Source: Campylobacterota bacterium (GTDB lineage: Bacteria; Campylobacterota; Campylobacteria; Campylobacterales; Sulfurovaceae). From it: DNA of 46,918 bases. Of the stretch, positions 158-39,800 are shown piece by piece. How positions within the stretch are numbered: position 1 is the stretch's first letter; each line of letters opens with the position of its first letter. Where the stretch lies: positions 1 through 46,918 of the forward strand of contig DSDW01000136.1 in assembly GCA_011048515.1 (NCBI GenBank), read 5' to 3'. Both the position numbers and the translations under genes were made by a program. Under the pieces are notes generated by a model, which was given only the letters and a program-made list of their open reading frames with translations, was not told where the DNA came from and did no database searches.

Positions 158-1672
158 GTGGCAAACAAATTGCAAGCAGATGAGATTAGTTCGATCATCA
201 AAGAGAGAATTGAGAACTTTGAGATTGATGTTAATATCAATGAAGTTGGTAAAGTAGTAGGTATCGCTGACGGTATCTCAACAGTGTATGGTCTGAACAA
301 CTGTATGGCTGGTGAAGTCGTTGAATTTGAAAACGGTGCAAGAGGTCTTGTACTCAACCTTGAAGAATCAAGTGTCGGTGTCGTTGTACTTGGTAAAAGT
401 GCAGGGATCGTAGAAGGTATGAGTGTAAAAAGAGAAGGTTCACTTCTTAAAACACCTGTAGGTGATGCGCTTCTTGGTAGAGTAGTTAACTCACTGGGTG
501 AGCCGATCGACGGTAAAGGTGCGGTTGAAGCAGCTGAGCACAGATTTATCGAAGAAAAAGCACCGGGGATCATGGATAGAAAATCTGTTCATGAGCCGCT
601 TCAAACCGGTATCAAATCAATTGATGCACTTGTACCGGTAGGTAGAGGACAGAGAGAGCTTATCATCGGTGACAGACAGACTGGTAAAACAACGCTTGCG
701 ATCGATACTATCATCAACCAAAAAGGTCAAGATGTAGTTTGTATCTATGTTGCGATCGGTCAAAAACAATCCACTGTAGCGGCAACTGTCAAAAAGCTTG
801 AAGAGCATGGCGCGATGGATTATACGATCGTAGTCAACGCTGGTGCTGCTGACTCTTCTGCAGCACAATTCCTTGCACCATACGCAGGTGTAACAATGGC
901 TGAATACTTCAGAGATAACGGAAGACACGCAGTAATCTTCTATGATGACCTTTCTAAACATGCAGTAGCATACAGAGAGATGTCTTTGATCCTTAGAAGA
1001 CCTCCGGGCCGTGAAGCATACCCAGGGGATGTTTTCTACCTACACTCAAGACTTCTTGTGAGAGCAGCAAAACTTAACGATGAGCTTGGTGCCGGTTCAA
1101 TCACTGCGTTCCCTATCATTGAAACACAGGCAGGTGACGTTGCGGCATACATCCCGACAAACGTTATCTCTATTACAGATGGTCAGATCTTCCTTGAAAC
1201 AGACCTCTTTAACTCAGGTATCAGACCGGCGATCAACGTAGGTCTTTCAGTATCAAGAGTTGGTGGTGCTGCACAGATCAAAGCAACAAAACAAGTTTCC
1301 GGAACATTGAGACTTGACCTTGCGTCCTTTAGAGAACTTCAGGCGTTTGCTCAGTTTGCTTCTGACCTTGATGACCATACAAGAGCACAGCTTGAACGTG
1401 GACAGAGAATGGTAGAAGTACTTAAACAAGGGCCATACGCTCCAGTACCGATCGAGAAACAAGTAGTGATCATCTTCGCTGGTGCAAACGGTTTCCTAGA
1501 TGATATTCCGGTAGCGTCAGTGACGAAATTCGAGGCAGAGTTGATGCCATTCATGGATGCGAAGTATACGAACATCCTTGAGAGTATCAGAAATGAAAAG
1601 AAGATCTCTGATGAAACAGAGGCAGAGTTGAGAAAAGCGTTAGAAGATTTCAAAGCATCTTTTCAAGCGTAA
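158..1672 (+). CDS. atpA: ATP synthase F1 alpha subunit
   Basis: This is the non-catalytic nucleotide-binding subunit of the F1 hexamer, which makes ATP from the proton gradient. The 504 residues match the usual family length. The N-terminal beta barrel covers about residues 25-95, and the Walker A motif GDRQTGKTT is at about 171-179. The signature [17 protein letters not shown] follows at about 360-375. The start is supported by AAAGGAG at 147-153. It lies between atpH and atpG with short gaps, consistent with one operon. Nothing unusual is seen. Confidence 0.98.
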
Positions 1673-1684
1673 GAAAGGCTGATT

Positions 1685-2572
1685 ATGGCTAATTTAAAAG
1701 ATATCAAGCGTAAGATTTCGAGTGTTAAAAATACTCAGAAAACGACTCGCGCGATGAAGCTTGTCTCTTCTGCAAAACTAAGAAGAACAGAAGAGTTAGC
1801 TAAAAGATCTAGAGTCTATGCAAATAAACTTACTGAGCTTCTCAATGAGATCGCTCAGAAGTTGCAGCAAAACAACGTAGATGGATTGGATAACGTCTTT
1901 TTTAAAGATGCGAGCAATCCTAAAGTAGTTGACATTGTTTTTGTTACTGCAGACAAAGGTCTTTGTGGCGGCTTCAACGCACAGACGATCAAGAGAGTGA
2001 ATAATCTCTTGGCTGAGTATAAAACACAGAATGTAAAAGTTCGTCTTAGAGCAGTAGGAAGAAAAGGGATTGACTACTACAAGTTCAATAATATTGATAT
2101 GTTGAACGAGGTAGTCGGTCTTAGCTCTGCACCCAATTATGAAGATGCAGCAGCCCTGATCAATGAAATTGCTGACTCCTATGTAAAAGGTGAAACAGAC
2201 AAGATCATCATGGTTCACAACGGATATGTGAACATGATCACTCAGGAAGTAAGACAGGCTCAGGTACTGCCGGTCGATCCTTCTACATTGGAACTTGACA
2301 AAGTTTCAACTTCAGAACTTGAAGTTGAGCCTGATGAAGATGATGCACTTCTTGAAGCATTGGTGAAACGTTATATAGAATACACAATGTATTATTCACT
2401 TATCGATTCACTTGCTGCAGAACACTCTGCACGTATGCAGGCGATGGATGCAGCGACAAGCAATGCAAAAGAGATGGTTAAAAAGTTGTCTGTACAGTAC
2501 AACAAAGCTAGACAAGAAGCGATTACTACTGAACTCATTGAGATTATCAGTGGTATGGAATCAATGAAATAA
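1685..2572 (+). CDS. atpG: ATP synthase F1 gamma subunit
   Basis: This is the central rotor shaft that couples ring rotation to catalysis in F1. The 295 residues are typical. The N-terminal helix carries IKRKISSVKNTQKTTRAMKL, the classic start of the family. The C-terminal helix ends in NKARQEAITTELIEIISGM, also a conserved signature. An AAAGG motif at 1673-1677 precedes the ATG. The gene sits 12 bp after atpA and 18 bp before atpD. Confidence 0.98.
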   Translation: MANLKDIKRKISSVKNTQKTTRAMKLVSSAKLRRTEELAKRSRVYANKLTELLNEIAQKLQQNNVDGLDNVFFKDASNPKVVDIVFVTADKGLCGGFNAQTIKRVNNLLAEYKTQNVKVRLRAVGRKGIDYYKFNNIDMLNEVVGLSSAPNYEDAAALINEIADSYVKGETDKIIMVHNGYVNMITQEVRQAQVLPVDPSTLELDKVSTSELEVEPDEDDALLEALVKRYIEYTMYYSLIDSLAAEHSARMQAMDAATSNAKEMVKKLSVQYNKARQEAITTELIEIISGMESMK

Positions 2573-3994
<1,422 letters not shown>

Positions 3995-34758: not shown

Positions 34759-35514
34759 TTAGATATTGCTCTCATCATGAAGACCGTAGTGTATGCCTTT
34801 AAGATCCAGCAGATCGGTATACATTTTAAAGGCACGTTCGGCCAAATTTTTATCATAGGAGGCTACGGAAATGGAAACCCGCCATCCATCTTCATAGAGT
34901 TTCGGCAGTGATGAGAACTCTACCTCTTTTGGCATCTGCTCCATAAGGTCAATAAAGATATTTTCCTTGCAAAGCGCGGTGAGGGTATGGCGGTAATAGG
35001 TCTGTCTGTTGGGGATAAGTCTGGTTAATATCTCTTCTACCATAGGATGGCTCATTTCAGGAAATCCAGGCATAAAGAAATAACGGTCATCAAGGCTGAA
35101 TGCCGGCATTTTATTGATGGGGTTGTCAATGAGCTTTGCACCTTTTGGTAGTTCTGCCATGCGAACGGAGTAGGGGTAGGCTTTTTCTCCCAGTTGACCG
35201 ACGATAATCTTTTTGGCTTCCTGGTGCAGAGACAGTGTCCCGTCTCTCAATGCTATTGCGGCACATCGTCTCGTGTGGTCATCCGGAGTTGAGCCGATCC
35301 CCCCAAAACTGAAAAGTACGGCATTGGGCTGTGCAGCAATAAATTTGATCGTTTGAACGATGAGTGCAGGATCATCCTCGATAATAAATGACCCCGTCAG
35401 TTTATAGCCTCTCTGCGCAAGTGAGGAGGCAACAAAGTCAAAATGTTTGTCCCGTCTCCGTTGATTGAGTATCTCAGTGCCGATAATCAGTACAAAAAAA
35501 TTTGGAAGACTCAT
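34759..35514 (-). CDS. MoCF/CinA N-domain protein
   Basis: The 251 residues carry one MoaB/Mog-type domain with LIIGTEILNQRRRDKHFDF at the N-terminus and FSFGGIGSTPDDHTRRC, matching the GGxGxTxDDxT motif of molybdopterin-binding and CinA proteins. The C-terminal amidase (PncC) part of full CinA is missing, so it may be a stand-alone CinA-N pyrophosphatase or a molybdopterin-related protein. AAAAGGAACAG precedes the ATG. Confidence 0.82.
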   Translation of the reverse strand: MSLPNFFVLIIGTEILNQRRRDKHFDFVASSLAQRGYKLTGSFIIEDDPALIVQTIKFIAAQPNAVLFSFGGIGSTPDDHTRRCAAIALRDGTLSLHQEAKKIIVGQLGEKAYPYSVRMAELPKGAKLIDNPINKMPAFSLDDRYFFMPGFPEMSHPMVEEILTRLIPNRQTYYRHTLTALCKENIFIDLMEQMPKEVEFSSLPKLYEDGWRVSISVASYDKNLAERAFKMYTDLLDLKGIHYGLHDESNI

Positions 35515-35546
35515 TCTGTTCCTTTTGAAAGAGCATTTTTTAGCGT

Positions 35547-35552
35547 ATTATA
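35547..35552 (-). promoter_or_regulatory. -10 promoter element for the CinA-like/MFS unit
   Basis: On the minus strand TATAAT in TCGTTATAATACGC lies 32 bp before the ATG at 35514. Confidence 0.55.
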
Positions 35553-35669
35553 ACGAACTCCGCTCTATTTTGATATTGGTTAAAAAATAATCAAGAGGTT
35601 CTATATACACGGGCCGCTCTACGCTATACTTTGTTCAGGAGAGAGAATGGATGATTGGCTATCGGCTGG

Positions 35670-35755
35670 TTTGTATCTACAAGTACCTGAAGAGCCTCCT
35701 TATATTTGATTGCATTGATGCACACTTGTCCACTTCAGGTACTTGTAGATACAAA
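35670..35755. repeat. Perfect 23-bp inverted repeat with 40-bp centre
   Basis: The arm at 35670-35692 is the exact reverse complement of 35733-35755; each contains ACAAGTACCTGAAG or its complement. The 40 bases between do not pair well, and no T run follows. It sits in a 337-bp gene-free stretch (35515-35851) together with two divergent promoters. It may be a small mobile-element end pair or a regulatory hairpin. Confidence 0.9.
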
Positions 35756-35815
35756 TGATGTTTTAGTCATATCCTCCATTTTAGAGAACTCTATTTTGAC
35801 TACGCTCTTTTATGT

Positions 35816-35821
35816 TATAAT
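35816..35821 (+). promoter_or_regulatory. Extended -10 promoter for the small lipoprotein
   Basis: TGTTATAAT lies 30 bp before the ATG at 35852, with AAAGGAG as ribosome-binding site. TTGACT at 35796-35801 resembles a -35 but the 14-bp spacing is short. Confidence 0.6.
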
Positions 35822-35851
35822 GAAACAAGGTTTTAGATAAAAGGAGCCAGT

Positions 35852-36067
35852 ATGAAAAGTGTAGATATTAAAAAAATCTCTTTGGCATTTGCTTTAGTAT
35901 GGATGATGGTCGGTTGCGGACAACCAAGCCCAAATACCAAAAAAGGTGCCGTAGTCGGTGCTGCAAGTGGTGCAGTGATATCAGGCGTGACCGGTGGAAA
36001 TGTCCTGAAAGGTGCTGCAGTCGGTACGGTTGTCGGCGGAACAGTAGGGTATATCTCAGACCAGTAA
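35852..36067 (+). CDS. Small glycine-zipper lipoprotein
   Basis: The 71-residue product has a signal peptide with a lipobox-like MMVGC (lipidated Cys at about 24) followed by a glycine-zipper segment: GAVVGAASGAVISGVTGG and LKGAAVGTVVGGTVGY. Such proteins (SlyB/Rcp-like or OmpA-associated glycine zippers) sit in the outer membrane, and many are stress linked. The exact role is unknown. It ends 48 bp before the rpoD stop. Confidence 0.82.
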   Translation: MKSVDIKKISLAFALVWMMVGCGQPSPNTKKGAVVGAASGAVISGVTGGNVLKGAAVGTVVGGTVGYISDQ

Positions 36068-36101
36068 GTGGGATTTCCTGATTCTGAGAAATGAGACGTT
36101 G

Positions 36102-36126
36102 TAGAGGAGTTGTGATTACTCCTCTA
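36102..36126. terminator. Bidirectional hairpin holding the rpoD stop codon
   Basis: TAGAGGAGT (36102-36110) and ACTCCTCTA (36118-36126) form a 9-bp stem with a 7-base loop. The rpoD stop (36116-36118) lies at the loop edge and the last rpoD codons in one arm. It also lies 35 bp after the small lipoprotein stop. Confidence 0.65.
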
Positions 36127-37972
36127 TATAGTTTTTGAGTTTTCTTCCGACTTTCGGGTGTTTCAGTTTTTTAATCGCTGAGCTTTCTATCTGACGTACA
36201 CGTTCACGCGTAACATTGAGCTCTTTCCCGATCTCCTCAAGGGTTCTGTCACTCTCATCTTCAAGCAGTCCAAATCTCATACGGATCACGGCTTTTTCTC
36301 TTTCATTCAGTTGATCAAGCACTTCATCGATCTGAAGGTTGAGGTCATCCTTGAGCACAGCATCTGTAGGACTGAGCGTATCTTTGTCCTCAATAAAGTC
36401 CCCAAATCTTCCGTCATCCTCATCACCTACCGGTGTCTCAAGGCTCACTGGCTCCTTGGTGATCTTGATGACATTTTTGACCTTGTCTACAGAGAGTCCC
36501 ACCTCCTCTGCAATCGTTTCAAGATCAGGTTCTCTTCCTGTCTCCTGGAGATGTTTACGGATGATCTTGTTGATACGGTTGATCGTTTCGATCATATGGA
36601 TCGGGATACGGATCGTACGTGCCTGGTCCGCGATTGCACGGCTGATCGCCTGGCGGATCCACCATGTCGCGTAGGTGGAGAACTTGTACCCCTTCTCGTA
36701 CTCGAACTTGTCAACGGCTTTCATCAATCCGATATTCCCTTCCTGGATAAGATCAAGGAAGGGAAGTCCGCGGTTGGTATAGCGTTTTGCGATCGATACG
36801 ACCAGCCTCAGGTTTGACTTGGCCATGCGTGTTTTGGCCTTTTCGCTTTTTGCTTTACCCTGGCGGATCTGGTTGAGTACCTCCTGAAGTTTCTCTTCGC
36901 TCAGGTCAAACCCGCCCTTACTTGCTTCACGGGTCTCAAAGAGCTTTTTGATCTCCACATAGGTGCTTACCATGGTAGTTTCAGGAACAGCATCAATGAT
37001 ATCATCTTTATCCATATTGATAATATTGTCCAGAATCTTCTGGTGATTTTTTTTCAGGATGTCATTAAAGAGCGGAAGTTTGTACTCAAGACGCTTGAGC
37101 TCTCTTTCAAAACTGTCATCGCTGGTGAGAGCAGTTTCCATAGCCTTCACAAGTTCATTGATCAGTTTTGATGTCGGCCCGAGGTTGATCAGGGCACGCT
37201 TAAGGAGCTCTTTTTTGAAAGCGACTTTAAGACGTTCATGGAGGATGACCTCTTCGTCGCTTTCATTTTCCATCATCTTGAGCATCTCTTCACGTGCTTT
37301 CATCCACTCTTTTTTGGCTTTCTCCAGCTGTTTGAAGCTGTCTACAACCTGTTTTACTCTGCTGTCATCTTTTGGTGAATTTTCATTCTCTTCGTCATCA
37401 TCATTCTCGTCATCATCTTTGTCAGAGTCACTGTTCTTGTCATCTTCAAAACTTTTGAAGAGCTCTTTTACCCGTCTTTCACGGTTCAAAAGAGGGCCTT
37501 TATAGTTGAGGATGTAGTCGATCAGATAAGGTACGGAACAGATCGCATCAAGGATGATATTCTCTCCCTCTTCAATTCTTTGGGAGAGTTCAACCTCCTC
37601 TTCTTTGGAGAGGAGAGGAATTTTCCCCATTTCACGAAGGTACATACGCACAGGAGAGTCGGAACGGCTCCACTCAAGAAGTTCCTTTTCTTTAAGAAGG
37701 TCAAACTCCTCCAGCTCTTCTCCTGCGGCGATCTTTTTTTTCGCTTCTTCGATCTTTTCGGCCTGCTGTGTAGTAAGAAGCTTGGCATATTCGGATGAAC
37801 TTACGATCTCTACTTTATTATCAAGGGATAATTTCTGTATTTTTTTGGCCTGTACAGCGGTAATCTGTTTATTGAACTCTTTGGCGATGTTCTCAAGCGT
37901 AATTACATCACCTTTTTTTTTGGATGTAAAGAGCGTCTCTACGCTTTTCATACTGTCTTTTACTGCTGCCAT
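36116..37972 (-). CDS. rpoD: Primary sigma factor RpoD (sigma-70)
   Basis: This is the housekeeping sigma factor. The 618 residues include region 1.2 with [20 protein letters not shown] at about 102-121, an acidic stretch at about 175-205 ([14 protein letters not shown]), region 2 with [20 protein letters not shown] and [10 protein letters not shown], region 3, and region 4 with the helix-turn-helix [21 protein letters not shown] minus-strand TATAAT lies at 38031-38036. The gene is divergent from leuD. Confidence 0.98.
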
Positions 37973-38652: not shown

Positions 38653-39723
38653 ATGAGTAAGAGTTATAAAATCGGCGTGATTAAAGGTGACGGGATCGGT
38701 CCCGAGATCATTGATGAGGCGATCAAGGTATTGGATGCCGTATCGGTAAAAGAGGGATTTACGCTGAGATATGAGGAGATGCTTTTAGGCGGAGCGGCGA
38801 TCGATGAAACCGGTGTGCCCCTCCCTGATGAGACGATCCAGGGTGTAAAGAAGTGCGACGCGGTCCTTTTCGGTGCGATCGGCGGACCAAAATGGGACAA
38901 CCTGGAGAGACACCTTCGTCCTGAAACAGGGCTTCTCGGTCTGCGTAAAGAGATGGGGACATTTGCCAACCTCCGTCCGGCAATGGTCTATGATGAGCTC
39001 GTCAATGCCTCGACTCTCAAACCCGAGGTGATCAGAGGTGTGGATATTATGGTCGTGCGTGAACTGACAGGCGGTATCTACTTCGGCCAGCCAAGAGCGA
39101 TCGAAGGGGATAAAGCGTACAACACAATGGTCTATACCCGTGAAGAGGTAGAGCGTATTGCTGTCGTGGCGTTTGATATCGCAATGAAACGCAACAAGCG
39201 TGTCTGTTCTGTTGACAAGGCAAATGTGCTTGAAGTAAGCCAGTTCTGGAGAGAGATCGTTGAAGAAATTGCAAAAGATTACCCTGAAGTGGAGTTGACA
39301 CATATGTATGTGGACAATGCCGCGATGCAGCTGATCCGTGCGCCCAAACAGTTTGACGTGATTTTGACAGGGAATATCTTCGGTGACATCCTCTCGGATG
39401 CGGCAAGTATGCTCAGCGGTTCGATCGGGTTGCTCCCGAGTGCAAGCACAGGAAAAGGCGTGGGGCTTTATGAACCGATCCACGGTTCGGCACCGGACAT
39501 TGCAGGACAGGGTATCGCCAACCCGCTTGCTACGATCTCAAGCGCCAGCATGATGTTGCGTTATGCGCTTGGTGAAGAGAAAGCTGCGGACAGGATCGAT
39601 GAAGCCATCAAAAAGGCGCTTGCAGACGGGTATCGTACGGGCGATCTGGGCGACTATGATGCAAAAGAGATCTGTTCATGCAGCGAGATCGGTGATATCA
39701 TCGCTGATTATGCATCCAAATAA
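38653..39723 (+). CDS. leuB: 3-isopropylmalate dehydrogenase
   Basis: LeuB oxidises and decarboxylates 3-isopropylmalate with NAD. The 356 residues show [20 protein letters not shown] at the start, [10 protein letters not shown], the substrate-binding [32 protein letters not shown] and [18 protein letters not shown]. An AAAAAGG motif precedes the ATG. Three hairpins follow its stop. Confidence 0.98.
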
Positions 39724-39759: not shown

Positions 39760-39800
39760 TCTCTTAATAAAATTGCCGTATCGGCAATTTTATTAAGAGA
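39760..39800 (+). terminator. Long perfect hairpin after leuB
   Basis: Bases 39760-39778 and 39782-39800 form a perfect 19-bp stem with a 3-base loop. The stem is AT rich outside a GCCG/CGGC core, so the rising arm ends in TTTTATTAAG, which may act as the T tract. It is the likely main terminator of leuDB. Confidence 0.75.

Follow-up and report, generated by a model that had tools for sequence, protein, structure and literature searches.

What is a long, perfect inverted repeat doing between two divergent genes of a Campylobacterota bacterium? The question is raised by positions 35670–35755 of the window, the 46,918-nucleotide stretch of DNA analysed here. The two arms (35670–35692 and 35733–35755, forward strand), identified by an inverted-repeat search and by covariation, are complementary at 23 of 23 positions and enclose a loop of 40 nt (35693–35732). 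The arm search thereby reproduced the exact coordinates of the perfect 23-bp repeat with a 40-bp spacer that a preliminary description of this DNA had reported. The intergenic position given there was also recovered, since the repeat lies between the divergent ORFs 34759–35514 (minus strand) and 35852–36067 (plus strand). The former encodes a CinA-like protein, which scores 71.1 bits against Pfam PF00994 and falls below the NCBIfam CinA cut-offs. The latter encodes a 71-aa glycine-zipper protein (Pfam PF13441, 34.9 bits, cut-off 28.9) with a lipoprotein-like start, which we take to be a lipoprotein motif.

The inverted repeat in the window

Among the perfect inverted repeats of the window with spacers of up to 100, the 23-bp pair is the longest. 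The runner-up has arms of 19, and dinucleotide-shuffled windows (n = 6) reach best perfect arms of only 10–11. The 23-bp inverted repeat is real and well above chance. As RNA, the segment 35660–35851 folds with a z score of −5.08 relative to 200 shuffles, none of which (0 of 200) was equally stable. The loop contains CCTCCTT (35695–35701, plus strand), mostly unpaired in the predicted nested fold, and the CTCCTT of this stretch is complementary to the Shine–Dalgarno (SD) motif AAGGAG. The view that the repeat is no normal terminator was borne out, as a consensus scan yields no terminator-like site at the hairpin, and the hairpin does not combine a short GC-rich stem with a T run as an intrinsic terminator does. 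A second long perfect inverted repeat, with arms of 19 and a spacer of 3 nt, occupies positions 39760–39800 on the 3′ side of an ORF ending at 39723, which from its sequence is presumably LeuB-like. This repeat is an ordinary tight hairpin and may serve as a terminator.

Gene settings in the genus and beyond

A one-arm pattern allowing at most two mismatches was run over 78 genomes of the genus, with the reversed pattern as control. The pattern matched 13 of the 78 genomes and the control none. Paired arms were present in 12 of the 13, and the remaining genome (G072), with a lone unpaired arm, was excluded from the count. A strict paired-arm pattern matched no genome beyond the window's own. 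A covariance model built from 17 paired elements (R1) matched 13 of the 78 genomes, losing G072 and gaining G065, and the genus total is 18 elements in 13 of 78 genomes. Nine of these occupy the gap between nrtA and nrtB, four precede a second nrtB copy and the remaining five separate the cinA-like gene from the lipoprotein gene. All 18 are placed in sense orientation ahead of either nrtB or the lipoprotein gene, the element of G002 having been oriented by hand. The lipoprotein setting is found in the window genome, G036, G093, G028 and G065, and G028 carries the nrt kind as well.

The NrtB of G002 reaches 235.5 bits against the nitrate ABC transporter permease model TIGR01183 (cut-off 209.05), NrtA is an NMT1_2 protein, and a 192-aa part of NrtC scores 241.1 against ntrCD, under the cut-off of 291.8. 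At E 1e-70, nrtB is present in 12 of the 78 genus genomes, nine of which carry the element. No element was found in the other three of the 12 (G025, G063 and G061), and G025 and G063 have short nrtA–nrtB gaps. At the same threshold nrtB is absent from the window genome, G036, G093 and G065, whose completeness is 83–95%, and the best nrtB match in the window genome has only 33% identity. In the four second-copy settings nrtA is missing or, as judged by eye, only a remnant. There (L031, L033, L039 and L040) the second nrtB has its own hairpin and no intact nrtA, and L039 and L040 apparently retain a piece of the 3′ end of nrtA (by eye). In G028 (L080), genes divergent from nrtA on the minus strand (1160–3178 and 1–1164) presumably encode a nitrate reductase of the molybdopterin kind and a protein of the siroheme-synthase type, as would suit nitrate assimilation.

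This distribution bears on the three readings that the preliminary description had offered, of which the structured RNA leader was retained while a MITE or transposon end pair and a recombinase site were both set aside. The multiple copies that a genome-wide search for the arm sequence might have returned were not seen: in the window's own genome (2.08 Mb, 171 contigs, 90.1% complete) the sequence is present only as the window pair. One copy here, at most two per genus genome, three gene settings only, conserved arms around unrelated interiors, and plasmid and phage collections without a match all speak against both a MITE or transposon end pair and a recombinase site. A mobile element (MITE, REP or transposon ends) or a recombinase site would account for an inverted repeat that occurs in unrelated gene settings, but fixed settings, one or two copies per carrying genome, unrelated loops and arms without a fixed short core leave such an origin with almost no probability. 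The many dispersed copies of a MITE or REP failed to appear. A Xer/dif or inverton site was rejected on the spacer, which is 40 nt here and 32–50 nt in the genus, in contrast to the central hexanucleotide that PMC2731167 names as a hallmark of dif. The same paper describes a classical dif-like motif in Sulfurovum.

The lipoprotein setting was compared with other cinA-like loci. The cinA-like gene is present in 66 of the 78 genus genomes, and among the best 30 loci, which were inspected, the hairpin is present in 5 and absent from 24, with one locus unreadable (G073). The preliminary description had named absence from the closest strains as evidence against its proposal; the five most similar cinA-like loci all carry the hairpin (5 of 5). 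Both the hairpin and the lipoprotein gene are missing from 24 of the next 25, and in 21 of the 24 hairpin-less loci the sigma-factor gene known from the window, which we take to be RpoD from its sequence, comes next without an intervening lipoprotein gene of this kind. The lipoprotein region has strong matches (E 1.7e-57 or better) in the five hairpin genomes and no others, and three weaker matches all lie elsewhere. Since both occur in the same five genomes, the hairpin and the lipoprotein gene were apparently gained together in one clade. Four of the 24 hairpin-less gaps (G099, G019, G032 and G089) hold palindromes of other kinds. The gaps L198, L200 and L221 beside the cinA-like gene contain different palindromes of the GGGTACCC type, and such palindromes of other genus genomes are perhaps REP-like.

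The alignment of the five lipoprotein sites contains three conserved blocks. The first is TATACTTTG, which lies upstream of the hairpin, the second is the hairpin itself, whose loop includes CCTCCT and TGTCC, and the third comprises TATGTTATAATG and AAAAGGAG ahead of the start codon. The first block, invariant in 5 of 5 genomes, surrounds TATACT (35625–35630, plus strand), a putative −10 box for a transcript containing the hairpin. Downstream of the hairpin, TATGTTATAAT (35811–35821, plus strand), identical in 5 of 5 genomes, is a putative extended −10 box of the lipoprotein gene, and AAAAGGAG (35839–35846, plus strand) is its SD sequence. The consensus scan reported no promoters in the cinA-like/lipoprotein gap. 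From these motifs we infer that the lipoprotein gene may be served by a pair of promoters, one for a long leader that includes the hairpin and the other for a short leader that lacks it.

A free-standing small RNA that starts from TATACT and pairs with SD sequences in trans through its loop would fit the conservation of TATACTTTG in 5 of 5 genomes, the separate putative promoter of the lipoprotein gene downstream of the hairpin, and a CCUCC that is predicted to be unpaired. This is unlikely, given that no terminator follows the hairpin, that the nrt copies are intra-operonic, and that the lipoprotein gene and the hairpin share the same five genomes, which suggests a link in cis. A leader peptide of 20 codons (35647–35709), whose coding sequence happens to include the 5′ arm, is highly improbable. 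By eye its frame is open in the window and in G093, and a related frame is open in G065; however, the G028a frame hits TAA in the arm (by eye), G036 has lost the ATG and has an in-frame TGA upstream (by eye), and arms such as that of L140 contain an in-frame TAA. The candidate was rejected on this lack of frame conservation, as seen by eye.

Beyond the genus, GTDB contigs supplied 65 nrtB loci, 54 of which were used (NrtB identity 66–93%); a truncated locus (L171) and loci of 32–52% identity (L174–L180 and L182–L184) were left out. Most of the 54 have Campylobacterota titles, and a few are titled just 'bacterium'. R1 matched 23 of them, each just upstream of nrtB, two of these (L149 and L158) on the other strand only. 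Related hairpins occur in the nrtA–nrtB gaps of other Campylobacterota, in records of Sulfurimonas, Arcobacter and Sulfurospirillum. Over 72 sources (387 kb), all R1 matches up to E 0.5 fall upstream of nrtB or beside the lipoprotein gene. A model-independent stem search was scored in 45 gaps, namely the 54 minus seven too short for the search and minus L169 and L170. The best stem exceeded the best of 25 shuffles in 39 of the 45, a count that includes L138, L157 and L165 although their hairpins look unrelated, and 33 reached a score of 14.

A second model with strict filters (R2) matched 11 of 398 genomes of the order, nine of them at nrtB or the lipoprotein site; the other two (G207 and G230) gave weak matches (E about 1e-3) outside the listed nrtB places. 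Among the 44 nrtB genomes of the order, R2 matches G028, G077, G427, G215, G253, G269, G379 and G431, and about 36 have no match under these strict filters. The hairpin family is not universal among nrtB genomes. In the distant nrt loci L174–L180 (38–52% identity), stems within 50 nt of nrtB score 9 at most. An Rfam scan of window positions 35200–36300 and eight loci gave no match at the gathering score, the window segment producing only weak microRNA-family matches far under gathering. Among the matches listed in literature searches, no paper describes the family. We regard it as a candidate RNA family, unmatched in the Rfam scans.

Covariation of the stem

The preliminary description had named compensatory changes in relatives as the test for RNA structure, and these are abundant, which upholds the structured RNA leader. 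Alignment A4 comprises 31 of the 39 sense-strand R1 matches; seven near-duplicates (L033, L040, L052, L120, L121, L141 and L145) and the unrelated-looking L138 were dropped. Changes on both sides occur at 20 of 23 stem pairs, compared with only 5–10 pairs in controls with slid partners, in rows chosen by a stem-aware model that favours paired rows. The cells with both-side changes number 97 against 12–25 with partners slid by 1–3 columns, further pair types 42 against 17–26, and none of 500 shuffles reaches any of five covariation measures. A genus-only alignment has three covarying pairs, and two of the five measures are no better there than in shuffles (214 and 479 of 500). The strength of the covariation comes from the wider set because the arms are so strongly conserved within the genus. 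In a copy from another genus (G427), six arm positions depart from the genus consensus, yet 23 of 23 pairs are kept.

Imperfect pairs read on the strand of the downstream gene comprise 38 G-U and 9 A-C, a count with some bias, since the stem search beyond the genus permitted G-U and wobble had first served to orient several genus elements. This wobble-based orientation of the genus elements matches the direction of the downstream gene. The hairpin consists of a stem of about 23 bp and a loop of about 15–60 nt. Stem columns 14–19 (GTRCCT) are kept as sequence, G14 in 30 and C18 in 29 of the 31 elements, a possible sign that a protein binds there or a nuclease acts on it. Arm sequence more conserved than pairing demands would also suit a pair of DNA operator sites in which the arms are bound by a regulator. 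That reading is very unlikely, as the distance between the arms varies from 32 to 50 nt within the genus with no fixed phase, the arms change in a compensatory manner, and the wobbles favour one strand. Judged from these comparisons of sequence, the structure and conservation of the hairpin are well supported.

Loop pairing, proposed mechanism and known systems

The fit between loop and SD sequence was analysed in 41 elements, 30 after dereplication; elements with a stem score below 14, as well as L138, L153, L156, L157 and L165, had been dropped. A pyrimidine run of at least six containing CC is present in 25 of the 30 loops and missing from L131, L142, L143, L149 and L158. The mean loop–target energy, computed in 14-nt windows, has its minimum of −7.8 at window starts −18 and −16 (range −18 to −16) and is −2.5 to −4.6 inside the gene. 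Loops pair with their own SD sequences at −8.47, compared with −7.27 (sd 0.35) for swapped partners (p 0.0007, related lineages being non-independent), and the difference in run length, 6.17 versus 5.79, is marginal (p 0.049). Shuffled loops give −4.89 (sd 0.30, 300 rounds) against −7.82 for the real ones. With reversed loops the energy remains at −6.80, and the pyrimidine run itself thus accounts for much of the fit. The longest matching runs are 13 (L123 and G077), 10 (G070a) and 9 (L130 and L133), and the SD window is the single best loop target in 11 of the 30 elements, including that of the window.

In the predicted fold of the window's long leader, CCUCC of the loop has an unpaired probability of 0.82–0.96. 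The GGAG of the SD sequence is predicted to pair with another stretch (unpaired probability 0.03–0.08); the SD sequence of the window could thus be concealed without help from the loop. In several nrtB loci the SD sequence begins a few nucleotides past the stem, and pairing in cis would therefore require a bent-back loop.

The most likely reading is that the hairpin lowers downstream translation by loop–SD pairing and protects the nrtA message. We give a probability of about 0.5 to a cis-acting intercistronic or leader hairpin that reduces translation of the next gene through its loop and can shield the upstream mRNA. The stem would close after transcription, and the pyrimidine-rich loop would pair with the SD sequence of the next gene, resulting in less translation, while the stem could block 3′–5′ exonucleases. 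For a nitrate operon, the expected outcome would be abundant binding protein alongside low amounts of permease. In the window, away from close nrt genes, the hairpin would lie in the putative long leader starting from TATACT (35625–35630), which may be poorly translated, whereas transcripts from TATGTTATAAT (35811–35821) would lack the hairpin and allow free translation of the lipoprotein gene.

A possible but clearly less probable alternative is that the hairpin is only a boundary of mRNA decay, as at malE–malF, in which the stem protects the nrtA message, the loop is incidental, and the window copy is a leftover or another stabiliser. The position directly after the binding-protein gene, the second hairpin often found ahead and the precedent reported in E. 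coli (PMC5927463) agree with it. Two observations weigh on the other side: the loop–SD fit peaks at the SD sequence and exceeds both swapped and shuffled controls, and the gene upstream in the window is divergent, leaving no same-strand upstream message to protect.

Some loci carry a segment 9–11 nt upstream that could pair with the outer half of the 5′ arm, in rivalry with the 3′ arm. It is present in most nrt loci of the genus, in loci of Arcobacter, Poseidonibacter and unclassified Campylobacterales (L140, L144, L149, L153, L154 and L156) and in one of Sulfurospirillum (L135), and its sequence is AAATACAAA, AAAAGATAAA or GAACACAAA according to lineage. Several Sulfurimonas-type loci have a separate small hairpin ahead instead, and neither a competing segment nor a preceding hairpin was found at the lipoprotein site. 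Because the segment would compete for the outer 5′ arm, the hairpin might be a regulated RNA switch of Campylobacterota nitrate uptake, in which a protein or metabolite chooses the fold, the loop binds the nrtB SD sequence, and a competitor-less hairpin came to lie before the lipoprotein gene. We consider this extension tentative and rather unlikely.

The hairpins make up a candidate RNA family that recurs at one set place in the nitrate-transport operons of several Campylobacterota lineages. Few cis-acting RNAs seem to have been described there, since in Campylobacter jejuni the TPP riboswitch is the sole metabolite-sensing leader reported in the available part of PMC3847290, which also describes the organism as lacking Hfq. 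The same hairpin before an unrelated gene offers a way to ask how RNA control elements reach new genes.

Like REP elements, the hairpin is an intergenic palindrome able to form an RNA hairpin; REPs are 20–40 bp long and of high copy number, whereas the present element measures 86 bp and, in fixed settings, occurs once or twice in each genome that carries it. CGTC-type REPs have been reported in Sulfurovum NBC37-1 (PMC3733652). The arrangement has a closer counterpart in the E. coli ABC operons of the malE–malF type, which likewise have a stable hairpin between the binding-protein and permease genes. In the portion of PMC5927463 available, the stabilised segment of malEFG and four other such operons is always the binding-protein gene and often ends in a hairpin. 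A stable hairpin in this position was found in 39 of the 45 scored gaps. Unlike malE–malF, one covarying long stem recurs here across lineages and its loop matches the next SD sequence; the family also has a copy before an unrelated gene, and the window copy lies outside a binding-protein/permease gap. SD-sequestering leaders are known from RNA thermometers and from the expression platforms of ribosomal-protein leaders and riboswitches. They place an anti-SD sequence near the controlled gene on the same transcript, as the candidate anti-SD sequence would be here. In contrast to these leaders, no sensor domain was recognised in the present hairpin, and its candidate anti-SD sequence sits in a loop closed by a very long stem; pairing with the SD sequence would therefore be a pseudoknot-like long-range contact.
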